Positions 12,133 to 17,340 of a stretch of DNA of 51,167 nt are shown here, piece by piece (the first letter of the stretch is position 1; the number at the start of each line of letters is the position of its first letter). Where the stretch lies: positions 1 through 51,167 of the IMG/VR virus record IMGVR_UViG_3300048838_000881, one strand, 5' to 3'. The notes under the pieces were generated by a model. The model did no database searches and was not told the origin of the DNA. It saw only the letters and a list, made by a program, of their open reading frames with translations. The DNA is from a virus. A program made the position numbers and the translations under genes.

Positions 12133-12340
12133 TAAAGCTTATATCGAGCGAGAACTAATTGCTCTTGGACTCGACCGCACATCAGACGCTTTTCAATACA
12201 TTAAGCTAGAAGCTGAGGCGGCTGCCGAGATTCTTTCTAAACGCGAGGTGCTTGATCTAATAGCTGATCTCGTGCACGGACCGCTTGCGCTGCCTACGAT
12301 GATGTTTCTTGGTGATTCTGATTATGAAAGCGAAGATTAA
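12122..12340 (+). CDS. Hypothetical acidic protein (72 aa)
   Basis: I chose ATG 12122 because GGAGG lies ten bases upstream; the frame is open further upstream but that part only overlaps the previous gene. The product is a small acidic helical protein ending in SDYESED. It is convergent with the glycosyltransferase gene and overlaps its end by 47 bp. No family recognised. Confidence 0.6.
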   Translation: MANNKAYIERELIALGLDRTSDAFQYIKLEAEAAAEILSKREVLDLIADLVHGPLALPTMMFLGDSDYESED

Positions 12341-13250
12341 GCGCATATTCTTCGTGCGGGTTAGCTGCAAGATCTCTCACAAGCATATTTTCTTTTTTAA
12401 AGCGTGAGTAATCTACATAATGATGATGACGATTAAATTTATGCACCATCCGCGCAACATCCGAATGCACGCGCGCAAGCATGAGAGATTTAGCTAGCGT
12501 CCCAGTATCTGCATATTTCGAGCTACCGCGCACCTTCCCCTCTACGTGATAAAACTCATCCGTATTACCGCCCTTGAGCGCTTGCGTACCAAGCTTATTT
12601 TGCAAGAATGCATTGAATTGAATCGTGCACCATTTTGCTTTCAACATATCGAGCGATAGAATCGTATCTTCGTTATAGCGCCCGCGCCAGCGAAACGGTA
12701 CGTCATTGCGTATAAGATTGCATGAATAAATTCGCGTATTCAACGTGAACGGCGGCAGCGCCGCGGCGCCGAAAGCGAACATCGAATAATTAGGCCCGGC
12801 CATCGCCACGTTTCGATAGCGCAACACGAAATCTTCTTGCGCTCTAAAGAATACGGGATTTATAATCTTAATGCGCTCTTTACGCGTCATCCGTCGAAAG
12901 CACGAGATATTATCGTCCATCACCCAGTGCCACGCAGCGCCAAGCTCTGCGATCGAATAATCCCACGCGAAATTACGCGCTGGACCTGGCCCCGTACTCT
13001 TCGTCAATCCGAAATCGTCACACAATTCATATTTTTCTTTATACGATAGATCAAGTTCAAGCACCGTGGCGTCAAGCTGCATCGTCTCGACCGCTCTTTT
13101 ATATGCGATTACCTCTTGCGGTTCGACGACGAGATAATGAGCGACACCCATTTCCGTGAGTGCTTTCGACGTGAGCATATACTGTGCGCGTCCCTTCGTG
13201 GGTATAAATAGCGGGAAGCGCGGATAATTATTCCCAGCGTTTTGCTTCAA
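12294..13250 (-). CDS. TET-associated-type DNA glycosyltransferase (TAGT)
   Basis: A 318-residue GT-A-like enzyme. Characteristic stretches are the N-terminal FPLFIPTKGRA (11-21), GPGPARNFAWDYSI near 88-101, HWVMDDNI near 109-116 holding the metal-binding DD, NTRIYSCNLIRND near 171-183, GRYNEDTILSLDML near 190-203 and a His-rich HKFNRHHHYVDY near 272-283. I recognise these as the TAGT family, which in phages attaches sugars to hydroxymethylated pyrimidines in DNA. No TET dioxygenase, thymidylate-synthase-like hydroxymethylase or other hypermodification enzyme is visible here, so the source of its substrate base is open. It overlaps the ParB-like gene upstream by 23 bp, suggesting they work together. 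Confidence 0.75.
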   Translation of the reverse strand: MKQNAGNNYPRFPLFIPTKGRAQYMLTSKALTEMGVAHYLVVEPQEVIAYKRAVETMQLDATVLELDLSYKEKYELCDDFGLTKSTGPGPARNFAWDYSIAELGAAWHWVMDDNISCFRRMTRKERIKIINPVFFRAQEDFVLRYRNVAMAGPNYSMFAFGAAALPPFTLNTRIYSCNLIRNDVPFRWRGRYNEDTILSLDMLKAKWCTIQFNAFLQNKLGTQALKGGNTDEFYHVEGKVRGSSKYADTGTLAKSLMLARVHSDVARMVHKFNRHHHYVDYSRFKKENMLVRDLAANPHEEYALNLRFHNQNHQETSS

Positions 13251-13862
13251 GATCGCGCCTCTCTTTTTTCGGGTGCCAGATCGACTTCGTTTTTTCCGTG
13301 CAGCTTTGCCCGATCAGCTTAAAGAAATCTTCAACATCTTCCGGGGTATCAAAATTTACGATTATCTTTCGATAGCACGGCGCTGAATCTTCGAAATCCG
13401 GCATCGCGTCGTCCCACTCGCGCTTCGCATCTTCGGCGTTTAGCGCACGCAAAGCGCCGTCGCCCAGAATATTTGGGTCGATCGACATGATTTCGATATT
13501 CGAGAAGCCAAGAAAATCGAGATTAAAATCCATGCCCTTGAGCAAGAACATTTCATTTTTTAGGCTATCGATATCCCACTCGGATTCGGCGAGCTTGTTA
13601 TCCGCGATGCGCGCCGCTTTCACCTGCGCGGGCGTGAGATCCGAGCGCACGATGACCGGCACCTCGCGCATGCCGAGCCGCTCGGCAGCGAGCCGTCGAC
13701 AGTGGCCCTTGATGATAACGCCCTCCGCATCGACGACGATCGGCTGATCGAAGCCAAACTCGGCGATCGCCGAGCAAGCTTTATCACTTGCTCGGCGGGG
13801 TGCTTTTTAATATTATTGAAATAAGGCTTGATCGAGCTAAGCTCGCGCATTTCGCTTTGCAT
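13228..13862 (-). pseudogene. ParB/Srx-like domain protein, split by a -1 frameshift
   Basis: Two frames together make one ParB-like protein. From ATG 13862 the first frame reads IKPYFNNIKKHPAEQVIKLA, the start of a ParB N-terminal domain, then turns to nonsense. One frame back the sequence continues AIAEFGFDQPIVVD, then an IIKGHCRRLAAERLGM stretch with the catalytic-type GHxR, then MREVPVIVRSDLTPAQVKAARIADNK, ending at 13228. Joining needs one extra base near 13780. The lesion falls at an 11-bp hairpin (CGCCGAGCAAG / CTTGCTCGGCG, 8-base loop) next to a 16-bp palindrome, a place prone to sequencing or replication slips. It could be a true mutation, an assembly error, or, less likely, programmed frameshifting. 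The protein sits directly upstream of the TAGT gene. Confidence 0.7.
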
Positions 13863-13928: not shown

Positions 13929-14249
13929 TTAATTGCCGAGCTCGCCGCTCGCATTGCGATAGCGAACGATCGCGCAATATTCCTCGTGCCCGGCGACGGC
14001 AGCCGCGAGCGTAGAATAACGCGCCTGATAGTGCTTAAAATCATTGTCATAGAAAATCATCGTCTCAAATATGATCGGCGCCTCGCGCGGATTTATGCCG
14101 TGGTCAATCCCCAGGCACACGGTCGACACCAGTGTTTTACCTATATACTCCTGGCGCACGATGCGATTTTCGGGCACCTTTGCCCACGCGGCCCACTCGT
14201 TTACGTCCCTCGTTTTGACGACCTCGCCGTCAATCAGCATATAATACAT
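13929..14249 (-). CDS. Conserved-type small phage protein (106 aa)
   Basis: A 106-residue alpha/beta protein. Its layout (YYMLIDGEVVKTRDVNEWAAW, then STVCLGIDHG, then PIIFETMIFYDND, then an AAVAGHEEY helix) resembles hypothetical proteins I have seen in phages of many Gram-negative hosts. Function is unknown to me. It is separated from the ParB-like gene by 66 bp and from the next gene by six. Confidence 0.6.
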   Translation of the reverse strand: MYYMLIDGEVVKTRDVNEWAAWAKVPENRIVRQEYIGKTLVSTVCLGIDHGINPREAPIIFETMIFYDNDFKHYQARYSTLAAAVAGHEEYCAIVRYRNASGELGN

Positions 14250-14255
14250 AGCCGT

Positions 14256-14480
14256 CTACTCCAGGTTATCTACACCGTACTCGCTTAGAATCTCATGAAA
14301 TCTTTCGCGTACTTGCACGAGGATATCTTTCTCAGCAGTCGAATACCCCTCATTATATTTAACCTCGGAGCGTAGATACTCGGTCATAGCCTTTATAGCG
14401 CATTGCATATAATCAGCTTTTATATGCGTGTTATACGCGGCCGCGTCCTCCGGAAGATTGAATTCAAGGATTACTTTCAT
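14256..14480 (-). CDS. Hypothetical protein (74 aa)
   Basis: Starts at ATG 14480 with GAGGAAA upstream. The product begins VILEFNLPEDAAAYNTHIKADY and then forms two helices. Very similar layouts (EFNLPED followed by helices) occur in small phage accessory proteins, but no function is known to me. A hairpin lies in its leader (14505-14527). Confidence 0.6.
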   Translation of the reverse strand: MKVILEFNLPEDAAAYNTHIKADYMQCAIKAMTEYLRSEVKYNEGYSTAEKDILVQVRERFHEILSEYGVDNLE

Positions 14481-14504
14481 ATTTTTATTTCCTCGCCAGG
14501 GGGG

Positions 14505-14527
14505 AGGGGCTCAAAATCTGAGCCCCT
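14505..14527. other. Intergenic hairpin
   Basis: AGGGGCTCA (14505-14513) and TGAGCCCCT (14519-14527) form a nine-base-pair stem with a five-base loop between two leftward genes. No T-run follows on the minus strand, so it is not a standard terminator for that direction. It may stabilise or process the mRNA. Confidence 0.45.
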
Positions 14528-14534
14528 TAAAAAT

Positions 14535-14822
14535 CTATGCAATATCTCCACGTTCTTCTATGATATCTAGCGCCACGAGCGCCTGGCGCAGGCCCATGAT
14601 TGCATACTCGATCTCTCTTGCATGCACGTGCGGGTGCGCTCGCCGCTCCTCGTCTAAGCCTTCTAGCACAGCGATCAGCACGTCGCTCGCTCTTATCTTC
14701 AATCTATACGGTTTAACGTCCATGCGCGTCGTGCTCCAGGGGGCTTTTTCGAGTAAGGTGCCCCGTAACGTGGGGCTGACGATCATCTCAAGATAGGCCG
14801 CGACACCTATATCTATGTGCAC
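14535..14822 (-). CDS. Hypothetical helical protein (95 aa)
   Basis: The longest frame begins with GTG at 14822; an ATG 12 codons further in is an alternative, and neither has a strong ribosome-binding site. The second half is two helices (RASDVLIAVLEGLDEER and REIEYAIMGLRQALVALDIIEERG) joined by a short histidine-containing turn, superficially like the helical hairpin of the next protein upstream (15033-15527). A distant relation between them is possible but unproven. Confidence 0.5.
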   Translation of the reverse strand: MHIDIGVAAYLEMIVSPTLRGTLLEKAPWSTTRMDVKPYRLKIRASDVLIAVLEGLDEERRAHPHVHAREIEYAIMGLRQALVALDIIEERGDIA

Positions 14823-15032
14823 CTAGACCAGGGCGTTCTTGTGTCTGCTGACTCATTTAAATAACGATGACAATTCGTTACCCCTGTGCGCTTCTCCAGG
14901 GCTTACGACTTGAACGTAATGGCTTCCAAAGCACCCAGCTTCCAGCGCCGCGTGAGACAATTCAAAACTGTGAGCAGTTTGCATCATGCTCAGGATGATT
15001 ATCCCAATTGACGAGGATTGAGATAATTCAAA

Positions 15033-15527
15033 TCAAACTTGACTCGTACCCTCAACGCCTCTTGTTTCGCGGTTCTTTTTTCTTTTTTCAAGCCAATACA
15101 GCGCTTGACCCAAGCCGTGAATAGCGCGCTCGTTTTCTTTACAAGGATATGCCTTGTTTAGTTCTTCAAGAATCATTAAGGAAGCCTCAATTAAAGTATC
15201 AATCTGACAGCCATTAACGCCAACTTCTTTGATCGGTCCTTTTTGAAGCGTGAAAGCAATTGAATTTACGTCTTGTCGCACATAGACAAAATTATGTGGT
15301 CTGATATCCGCTTCAAACCATTTATAATCCATTGCTCCGGATTCGTTAAATTTCTCCGGATATTTTTCTCGAAGCTCGTCCATGATTACAACAGGAAACC
15401 CACCGATCTCTTTCACGCCCTTTAATGTTTCTAATGCCATTAGATTCTTATCCTTTCGTTTATGCGGCCAAACACAATCGCCTCTGCCGCAAAATGGTGT
15501 TCTTATATTTGGCGCGCATTTGCACAT
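15033..15527 (-). CDS. Acb2/Tad1-hairpin-like protein (candidate anti-CBASS/anti-Thoeris sponge)
   Basis: A 164-residue protein in three parts. A cysteine-rich leader (C2, C4, C13, C18; MCKCAPNIRTPFCGRGDC) looks like a small zinc site. A middle beta-rich part (IRPHNFVYVRQDVNSIAF then LQKGPIKEVGVNGCQ, residues 75-108) follows. The C-terminal helical hairpin contains KENERAIHGLGQALYWLEKR and the end RGVEGTSQV (156-164). I associate this hairpin with Acb2 and Tad1, phage proteins that sequester cyclic-nucleotide or gcADPR immune signals. The match is from memory of the family, not a search. The start at 15527 directly follows the previous stop; an internal ATG (15440) would omit the Cys leader. 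Confidence 0.6.
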   Translation of the reverse strand: MCKCAPNIRTPFCGRGDCVWPHKRKDKNLMALETLKGVKEIGGFPVVIMDELREKYPEKFNESGAMDYKWFEADIRPHNFVYVRQDVNSIAFTLQKGPIKEVGVNGCQIDTLIEASLMILEELNKAYPCKENERAIHGLGQALYWLEKRKKNRETRGVEGTSQV

Positions 15528-15878
15528 TCAAAAATCCCAAAAACTTTTTTCATTGGCGGCGTCCTTCTGCAAATGCCCATCTATATGCATTTTTATAGCT
15601 TCTCGCATGCATGCATCATAGGGCGTGAGGTATTTCTGCACATCCATAAATAATTCTCTTAACCTTGGAAGCCGCTTAATCGACTCAATAATCGGAGCAT
15701 CCGGACCCGCATCGCATGCCTCGCTGTTTGAAATCTCATGGGCTACATGTGAAAATTCTTCTAAGAACTTACCCCAAAGCTTAGTTAATTGGTCCCTACC
15801 CCCCTTGCAATCATTTGCACAGCTCGCTATTTTCTGATGAAAATAACCCCTTTCGTACTCGCCAAATTCTCTGCTCAT
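15528..15878 (-). CDS. Hypothetical protein (116 aa)
   Basis: A soluble, mostly helical protein with five cysteines scattered through it (residues 20, 24, 55 and 90 among them) and no membrane segment. Its stop is directly followed by the ATG of the Acb2/Tad1-like gene, so the two are probably co-translated and may be functionally linked. It overlaps the upstream gene by four bases. No family recognised. Confidence 0.55.
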   Translation of the reverse strand: MSREFGEYERGYFHQKIASCANDCKGGRDQLTKLWGKFLEEFSHVAHEISNSEACDAGPDAPIIESIKRLPRLRELFMDVQKYLTPYDACMREAIKMHIDGHLQKDAANEKSFWDF

Positions 15879-16159
15879 TCCTTCTCCGATTCTTCTAAAC
15901 CTAACGGCGAAACAATAATTACGCCGGATCTGTCTCTATGAAATTTCTCGTGCAAATATGCTAAGAGGATGACCTTTGCTTGTTTATTGGGCCTCATTTT
16001 ATTGGAAACTAGATGCATATCCTTTAAGAGTTCCATAGCTGAATAAGAAATTCCATACCCAGCAATAAGGTCAGCAATAGAGCTGGTGATTCTAAGAGCC
16101 GTAATATCCCCTTTAAAATAATTCCAAATTTCTTTTGATGGCCTTAACTTTTCAATCAC
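15875..16159 (-). CDS. Hypothetical protein (94 aa)
   Basis: An alpha-helical, basic protein of 94 residues (LRPSKEIWNYFKGDIT, then AMELLKDMHLVSNKMRPNKQAKVILLAYLHEKFHRD). It overlaps neighbours by one and four bases within the tight leftward operon. No family recognised. Confidence 0.55.
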   Translation of the reverse strand: MIEKLRPSKEIWNYFKGDITALRITSSIADLIAGYGISYSAMELLKDMHLVSNKMRPNKQAKVILLAYLHEKFHRDRSGVIIVSPLGLEESEKE

Positions 16160-16359
16160 TATTCATTTTCCCAAACCACTTGCATCTCTTTTCTCAATTT
16201 CTTGGTTACTGGTATGCGCATAAAATCTAAAAGACAAGGCCAACAGCTCCAGCGTAGAGATATGACGAGTTTTCTATCTTGAATCTTGGCCTGCACCATA
16301 TTCACAGCTTCTAGCTTGCATAAAGCGCATTTCCTTTTTCTTGGAGCAGACAGCCTCAT
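16159..16359 (-). CDS. Small zinc-binding-type protein (66 aa)
   Basis: Two cysteine pairs, CALC near residues 11-14 and CWPC near residues 39-42, suggest one zinc site. The rest is strongly basic (RLSAPRKRK at the start, KKLRKEM near the end), as in nucleic-acid-binding small proteins. It overlaps the upstream gene by four bases. Function unknown. Confidence 0.55.
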   Translation of the reverse strand: MRLSAPRKRKCALCKLEAVNMVQAKIQDRKLVISLRWSCWPCLLDFMRIPVTKKLRKEMQVVWENE

Positions 16360-16727
16360 CCCTTCTCCCGTTCAGTCTGTGCAAGAATCTTCTCGACCGC
16401 AATGATGCAACGCGCTTTTAGTGTCGGGTCAGCCTTTAATTTATCTATGCTTTGCTTAAAAATTCCTTCGCCAAATGAATTAGTTATTTCTTTAGCAATC
16501 TTTTTTCGCATGCCCTCTTTCATCGCAGCACGAAAAGATTCATCGAGCATTACAGCGTCGATTGATTCTTTGAGCCACGCTTCAATTTCTGATCCATAAG
16601 TTGAAAAGCATCTATTGATAATTGGTTTTAATGGAGAATTATAACCATCTCCAAGCATCTTTCTAATACTATCGGAAATTGCTGATTTAACTTCGCCTAG
16701 CACAGCTTTATCTAAATCATCCATCAT
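16356..16727 (-). CDS. Hypothetical helical protein (123 aa)
   Basis: A charged, almost fully helical protein of 123 residues with amphipathic segments (VKSAISDSIRKMLGDGY, then FRAAMKEGMRKKIAKEITNSF, then CIIAVEKILAQTEREKG). There is no membrane segment or metal motif. It overlaps both neighbours by four bases. No family recognised. Confidence 0.55.
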   Translation of the reverse strand: MMDDLDKAVLGEVKSAISDSIRKMLGDGYNSPLKPIINRCFSTYGSEIEAWLKESIDAVMLDESFRAAMKEGMRKKIAKEITNSFGEGIFKQSIDKLKADPTLKARCIIAVEKILAQTEREKG

Positions 16728-16960
16728 TCCTTCTCCAATCCGAAAGCACAGTCTCCAAGTTTGTCAAATTCTTCATCAAAAACATGGATAGCTAACAATG
16801 ATAATAGGATTAGTATCATCGAGGCGATGCCAAGCCACATAACATGTGTAACCATAAATGCCAGCAGCCCTACCCAGGGGGACAATAAAAGAAACACGAT
16901 TAACCCTAAACCAAGGTAAGCCGCCATTGGCTTGAAAGTTTCCCAATTTAGAGGCTTCAT
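16724..16960 (-). CDS. Small integral membrane protein (78 aa)
   Basis: Two transmembrane segments are clear: residues 13-35 (AAYLGLGLIVFLLLSPWVGLLAF and on) and 41-60 (WLGIASMILILLSLLAIHV), followed by an acidic cytoplasmic-like tail (DEEFDKLGD). Small membrane proteins in phage accessory operons are often superinfection-exclusion or membrane-directed counter-defence factors, but nothing specific is visible. It overlaps both neighbours by four bases. Confidence 0.6.
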   Translation of the reverse strand: MKPLNWETFKPMAAYLGLGLIVFLLLSPWVGLLAFMVTHVMWLGIASMILILLSLLAIHVFDEEFDKLGDCAFGLEKE

Positions 16961-17340
16961 TCCTTCTCCAAATCTTCTACTGCAAGCTTTAATTCGCCGA
17001 AATCTCGATTAAAGCTGTACCCGAATTTAGTGCTTTTAAAAAACGTATAATCCGTAAGGGCTTTAGCCGCTTCCGCAAGCTTGATGAATTTATCATACGT
17101 ATTCGCAGCCATAACGAAAAACTCTGCATCATTTTCCAATAAAGGGGTAGGAGAGTAAGAGTCATCTTGCATGGTAGTATTCTTATCGAATAATTCCTTC
17201 TCATCGCCAGGTGTGTAATTTAGTACAGCTGTATAACTCCGGCCTGACTCTGATTCAAAATGACAATCTTTCTCTAAAAAGAAAGACCATTTACCTTTGC
17301 TCCTTTTCGCAGCAATCTTTTTCATATCTTCGAGTTTCAC
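16957..17340 (-). CDS. Ea22-like small phage protein (127 aa)
   Basis: The C-terminal half carries DAEFFVMAANTYDKFIKLAEAAKAL, a stretch typical of ead/Ea22-like proteins found in many phage accessory regions, whose function is not known. The N-terminal half is a lysine-rich beta segment (RSKGKWSFFLEKDCHFESE). The assignment is by resemblance only. It overlaps neighbours by one and four bases. Confidence 0.6.
   Translation of the reverse strand: MKLEDMKKIAAKRSKGKWSFFLEKDCHFESESGRSYTAVLNYTPGDEKELFDKNTTMQDDSYSPTPLLENDAEFFVMAANTYDKFIKLAEAAKALTDYTFFKSTKFGYSFNRDFGELKLAVEDLEKE

Follow-up and report, generated by a model that had tools for sequence, protein, structure and literature searches.

The open reading frame at positions 15033-15527 (minus strand, stop codon included) of the window, i.e., of the whole stretch of 51,167 nucleotides analysed here (a 51 kb record classed as virus), starts with ATG and encodes a protein of 164 amino acids, in which, according to the list of open reading frames and to homology, a cysteine-rich leader of 29 residues precedes a body with the homology and the fold of Tad1. 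The best explanation of the whole, and one in which we place good confidence, is a Tad1-type immune sponge that carries a micro-module as its leader, an internal start at Met30 being also probable. As far as the sequence can indicate, the protein would serve in counter-defence. The hairpin family leaves the leader wholly unexplained, and this leader is the least expected part of the protein and the one with the best claim to novelty.

The body comprises residues 30-164 (15036-15440, minus strand), Met30 corresponding to the start of the relatives; it is delimited by alignments and by an AlphaFold model of these residues, with a mean pLDDT of 90.5 (80 in the model that includes the leader). Its Tad1 core, residues 77-164 (15036-15299, minus strand), contains the last strands, the GPxxExGxNG loop, the helical hairpin and the VEG tail, and was recognized by phmmer, hhalign and PHROG comparisons. 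Among solved structures, CmTad1 (PDB 8kbb) is matched by residues 76-164 in phmmer (E 3.3e-13, 40% identity over 77 columns), as is, at E 2.8e-5, gp184 (8y6v); the protein furthermore matches phrog_2428 (E 3.4e-22). A profile built from 19 family members matches six distinct PDB Tad1 chain sequences (E 2e-9 to 2e-17), and hhalign connects the family to a Tad1 set of eleven homologues from annotated phages, two of which are annotated as Tad1 (SBSphiJ7, SPG24), at 99.9% (E 9.7e-32, 88 columns). Concerning the Pfam hairpin family PF24729 (Acb2_Tad1_hairpin), the window protein itself did not match it in the Pfam search, and Pfam, NCBIfam and PADLOC returned no convincing family for this protein; 25 of the 34 family members match PF24729 at E <= 0.1, and two individually tested relatives, 73% and 62% identical to the window protein, pass its gathering score of 27 (L002 with 28.1 bits, L012 with 27.4 bits; both positive controls scored). 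The Acb2/Tad1 hairpin family, which the earlier note had proposed, is borne out by phmmer, by hhalign, by the structure matches and, in the relatives though not in the window protein, by PF24729, and the GVNGCQ motif (residues 103-108) and the RGVEGTSQV end to which it had pointed are present. Two Tad1-like genes were also found that have been left unannotated in public phage records, one in Vibrio phage BX-1 (L112; 1501-1716) and one in SPG24 (AB930182; 31557-31784).

In Tad1, two long C-terminal helices come after an N-terminal beta-sheet (PMC12043709). The AlphaFold model likewise ends in two long helices, residues 109-126 (15150-15203, minus strand) and residues 130-155 (15063-15140, minus strand; with N132, R149 and R153 according to model and alignment), so that the C-terminal hairpin described before is recovered. 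The part preceding them, described before as a beta-rich middle, is mixed: the models contain only three strands of three or more residues before the C-terminal helices, together with extra helices; both strand and helix occur before residue 77, and a good alignment with solved Tad1 is confined to residues 77-164. In Foldseek, the top 20 PDB matches are all Tad1, including complexes with gcADPR and with cAAA/cAAG, and the confident PDB matches of both models, with and without the leader, are to Tad1 only; matches in the viral structure library include proteins named 'Acb2/Tad1 hairpin'. The TM-score to solved Tad1, on the other hand, is no higher than about 0.5, owing to residues 30-76, which are unlike the corresponding part of solved Tad1. 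By comparison with the named chains (CmTad1 8kbb/8kbc/8kbd, CbTad1 7uav/7uaw/8smd, and SBSphiJ7), residues 77-164 share strands, the GPxxExGxNG loop, the CREN motif, the helical hairpin and the RGVEGT tail, whereas the block of residues 30-76 with its extra helices and KFNESGAMDYKWFE is found in the window family and not in solved Tad1, and the cysteine leader in the window protein only. A fold match over the full length is provided by an unnamed viral protein (BFVD A0A516MPI8; TM 0.94 by target, 52% identity), which with its 135 amino acids has no space for a leader.

A conserved N-terminal block of its own (FNESGAMDYKWFE) marks the unnamed phage family to which the body belongs; 47 homologous loci with conserved motifs throughout were found in IMG/VR, so that the observation goes beyond chance. 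This block, residues 30-76 (15300-15440, minus strand), is built around KFNESGAMDYKWFE from a short strand and helices, is nearly invariant in 34 IMG/VR family members and does not align to solved Tad1. The GVNGCQ loop (15204-15221, minus strand) corresponds, in the alignment of the family with Tad1, to GxNGV in most Tad1. In one sub-clade (L013-L020, L083, L090 and L092; tree support 100/100), by contrast, TKPASEGGDLNRCQ or a similar sequence stands in the place of GPxxExGxNGCQ; this exchange, with hairpin and tail retained, suggests a changed choice of ligand. In the tree of the family and other Tad1, branches are long and support is poor; the window protein falls within the family next to L003, with weak support. 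As far as our searches show, the clade is present in databases but uncharacterised. The body thereby adds to the Tad1 sponges a well-populated, unnamed clade of proteins from uncultivated phages, whose distinct N-terminal block may alter the choice of ligand.

The ligand pocket of CbTad1 reportedly includes N92, R109 and R113, and F82 is also said to belong to it. The first three align with N132, R149 and R153 of the window protein, which are conserved in the family; at the position of F82 the alignment places Leu123. Hairpin, tail and loop of Tad1 are all kept in the window protein. According to a review (PMC12043709), Tad1 assembles as a hexamer of dimers; gcADPR or cyclic dinucleotides are held between the helices of one protomer and, on the other protomer, the conserved loops together with the C-terminal tail, and the interfaces of trimers take up cyclic trinucleotides. 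From solved Tad1 we infer, by analogy, oligomeric state, ligand and host target system: the protomers of the sponge would form pairs and a hexameric assembly, and gcADPR or cyclic di- or trinucleotides would be bound where the C-terminal hairpin and tail of one protomer meet the loops of another, such that the captured signals would leave the Thoeris and CBASS effectors switched off during infection.

The leader (residues 1-29, MCKCAPNIRTPFCGRGDCVWPHKRKDKNL; 15441-15527, minus strand) contains cysteines at positions 2, 4, 13 and 18, as had been described in the earlier note (a small CxC...C...C leader). It is absent from around 35 distinct relatives, of which all complete ones start at the position that corresponds to Met30; the 424 kb surrounding the relatives, read in all frames, contain no peptide resembling it. 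Compared with these relatives, only this genome has added the leader. It was probably gained recently, since the tree places the window protein inside the family (beside L003, as mentioned). At the same time, the motif MCxCxPx(I/L/V)RTPxCGx3C, which window residues 1-18 fit at the very start of the open reading frame with all four cysteines in register, heads 28 or more other phage proteins with bodies that are, in almost all cases, otherwise unrelated. The loci bearing the peptide are L022-L044, L096-L103 and L115-L120. Annotated carriers include Burkholderia phage KL1 (AEX56077), Variovorax phage VCLv11, Pseudoalteromonas phage PH357 (APC44355) and several Vibrio phages; the KL1 and PH357 types share the leader peptide with the window protein, whereas their bodies have no relationship to Tad1 and, for the most part, none among themselves. 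Among 29 bodies behind the leader, only two pairs are related; the bodies include GNAT, DUF3310, HTH_3, phrog_11184, phrog_419 and unknowns. In the family libraries searched, the leader is nowhere named on its own; phrog_11184 (of unknown function) includes it together with one particular body, and a literature search for the peptide (as IRTPFCG, IRTPWCG and IRTPYCG) found no paper.

A codon pattern for MCxCxPxIRTPxCG was found in 23 IMG/VR stretches. When the ATG requirement was dropped, only three further stretches were added (one with a GTG start, two with His before the first Cys), such that 23 of 26 are preceded by ATG; loosening the pattern at residues 6 and 8 while requiring C18 gave 28 matches. 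In an alignment of 30 leaders, among them that of the window, one from a MAG contig and four from annotated phages, C2, C4, R9, T10, P11, C13, G14 and C18 are invariant; most of these positions are fixed by the search patterns, and fairer signs of conservation are P6 (28 of 30; free in the relaxed pattern) and P21 (24 of 30; in no pattern). Among the 27 viral records with the leader, 26 contain one copy and one contains two, although 'once per genome' is provisional, as many of these records are fragments; the reversed pattern has no match in the 27 records. Cellular genomes (257 Gb) yielded a single match, on a MAG contig of 7.4 kb, and plasmids (7.3 Gb) none. A reading of the leader as a DNA element was rejected: upstream sequence carries 0.12 bits per base, compared with 1.41 at codon positions 1 and 2 (a value inflated by the search patterns) and 0.41 at position 3, and beyond a weak ribosome-binding-site signal the upstream regions have no sequence in common. 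As the upstream DNA is unconserved relative to the codon positions, it is the peptide that seems to be under selection.

The leader is thus a recurrent module of phage proteins. It looks like a promiscuous N-terminal micro-module that probably binds metal, the four invariant cysteines in the arrangement CxC-x8-C-x4-C suggesting a metal knuckle. More tentatively, and at somewhat less than an even chance, it may be an undescribed Cys4 module of around 20 residues, present once per phage genome and moved between unrelated bodies, that is itself the selected unit and has here captured an anti-defence sponge. If true, the leader matters more than the body: a peptide that sits N-terminally on unrelated phage bodies, usually once per record, and is nearly absent from bacterial chromosomes has an odd pattern for a domain, and would point to a phage-specific function, e.g., metal-dependent docking to a host machine, exposure of an N-terminal cysteine, or co-translational control.

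With regard to the body, a sponge of the Acb2 type, binding cyclic oligonucleotides and not gcADPR, appears very improbable. Acb2 (e.g., T4 Vs.4, which scores 71 bits with PF24729) has the Pfam hairpin family in common with Tad1 and with the window family, but it is devoid of the strand part and of the GxNG loop, both of which the window protein possesses, and it exhibits no significant direct similarity to the window family: the profile comparison with Vs.4 gives a non-significant 19.6% over 15 columns, against 99.9% for Tad1, and the significant sequence and structure matches are to Tad1 or gp184 only. The family to which the earlier note had pointed is right; judged by these comparisons, the body is homologous to Tad1 and Tad1-like more precisely than Acb2-like. 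Unlikely, though somewhat less so, is the use of the hairpin scaffold for another job, e.g., as a virion component or for binding other nucleotides. In gp184 the hairpin terminates a longer protein, some hairpin homologues are annotated as structural (P59, Lactococcus 1706), and the conserved block with KFNESGAMDYKWFE is unlike solved Tad1; however, the residues that match Tad1 in hairpin and tail are among the conserved ones, and the reading frame lies in a region of small genes, on the opposite strand from the tailed-phage structural-looking genes, which are situated on the plus strand at 24-50 kb (assigned by eye, without a search).

A further alternative concerns the leader only and is compatible with the Tad1-type reading of the body: the leader might be a tiny separate coding unit that runs in frame into the sponge gene, the sponge being made from Met30 only. 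We regard this as doubtful, yet as a serious candidate. All relatives start at Met30, and the ribosome-binding site there is as good or better, with AAAGGA (15451-15456, minus strand) as the likely site and an anti-SD duplex of -5.4 kcal/mol compared with a weak -4.0 before the leader ATG. The leader is moreover disordered in the model (pLDDT below 50 for residues 1-26), and short leader reading frames that stand alone do exist (L098, L099 and L115). Other leader proteins, on the other hand, likewise run in frame into full domains, and the leader ATG directly follows the stop of the upstream gene (TGAATG), an arrangement expected for, and consistent with, coupled translation. Both leader-bearing and leaderless proteins may be made. 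Under the preferred explanation, a Tad1-type sponge with a micro-module leader, the sponge gene would have gained its 29 N-terminal residues from a widespread phage micro-module, the leader would probably form a small Cys4 metal knuckle with an action of its own, apart from that of the sponge, and the internal start at Met30 would probably also give the ordinary leaderless form.

The reading frame is part of a minus-strand run of close-packed small genes (13929-17340, from the list of open reading frames). As these small neighbours are almost devoid of Pfam or PHROG matches, the gene context neither favours nor opposes a counter-defence role. Around the Tad1 relatives, the search for conserved synteny gave only scattered matches, mostly to replication genes, and no common anti-defence island. 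The neighbouring gene at 14535-14822 (minus strand) was considered as a second hairpin after a single pairwise BLAST comparison (E 2e-4) and was rejected, with 0.3-1.2% in the profile comparison and no phage relatives. Polymerase- and helicase-like genes are situated on the minus strand at 5-11 kb (by eye, no search). At 12294-13250 (minus strand), a gene matches phrog_842 (beta-glucosyl-HMC-alpha-glucosyltransferase; E 2.4e-37), from which the phage may glycosylate its DNA bases. The start of a short reading frame at 13228-13671 (minus strand) matches the middle of PHROGs that are ParB-like and DNA methyltransferases; it may represent the C-terminal part of a ParB-like gene that was split or has suffered a frameshift. 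Finally, TCATTCCTTCTCC recurs between 15874 and 17202 wherever one small minus-strand gene gives way to the next; these junctions have a stop/start overlap, GGAGAAGGAATGA, in common together with a ribosome-binding site.
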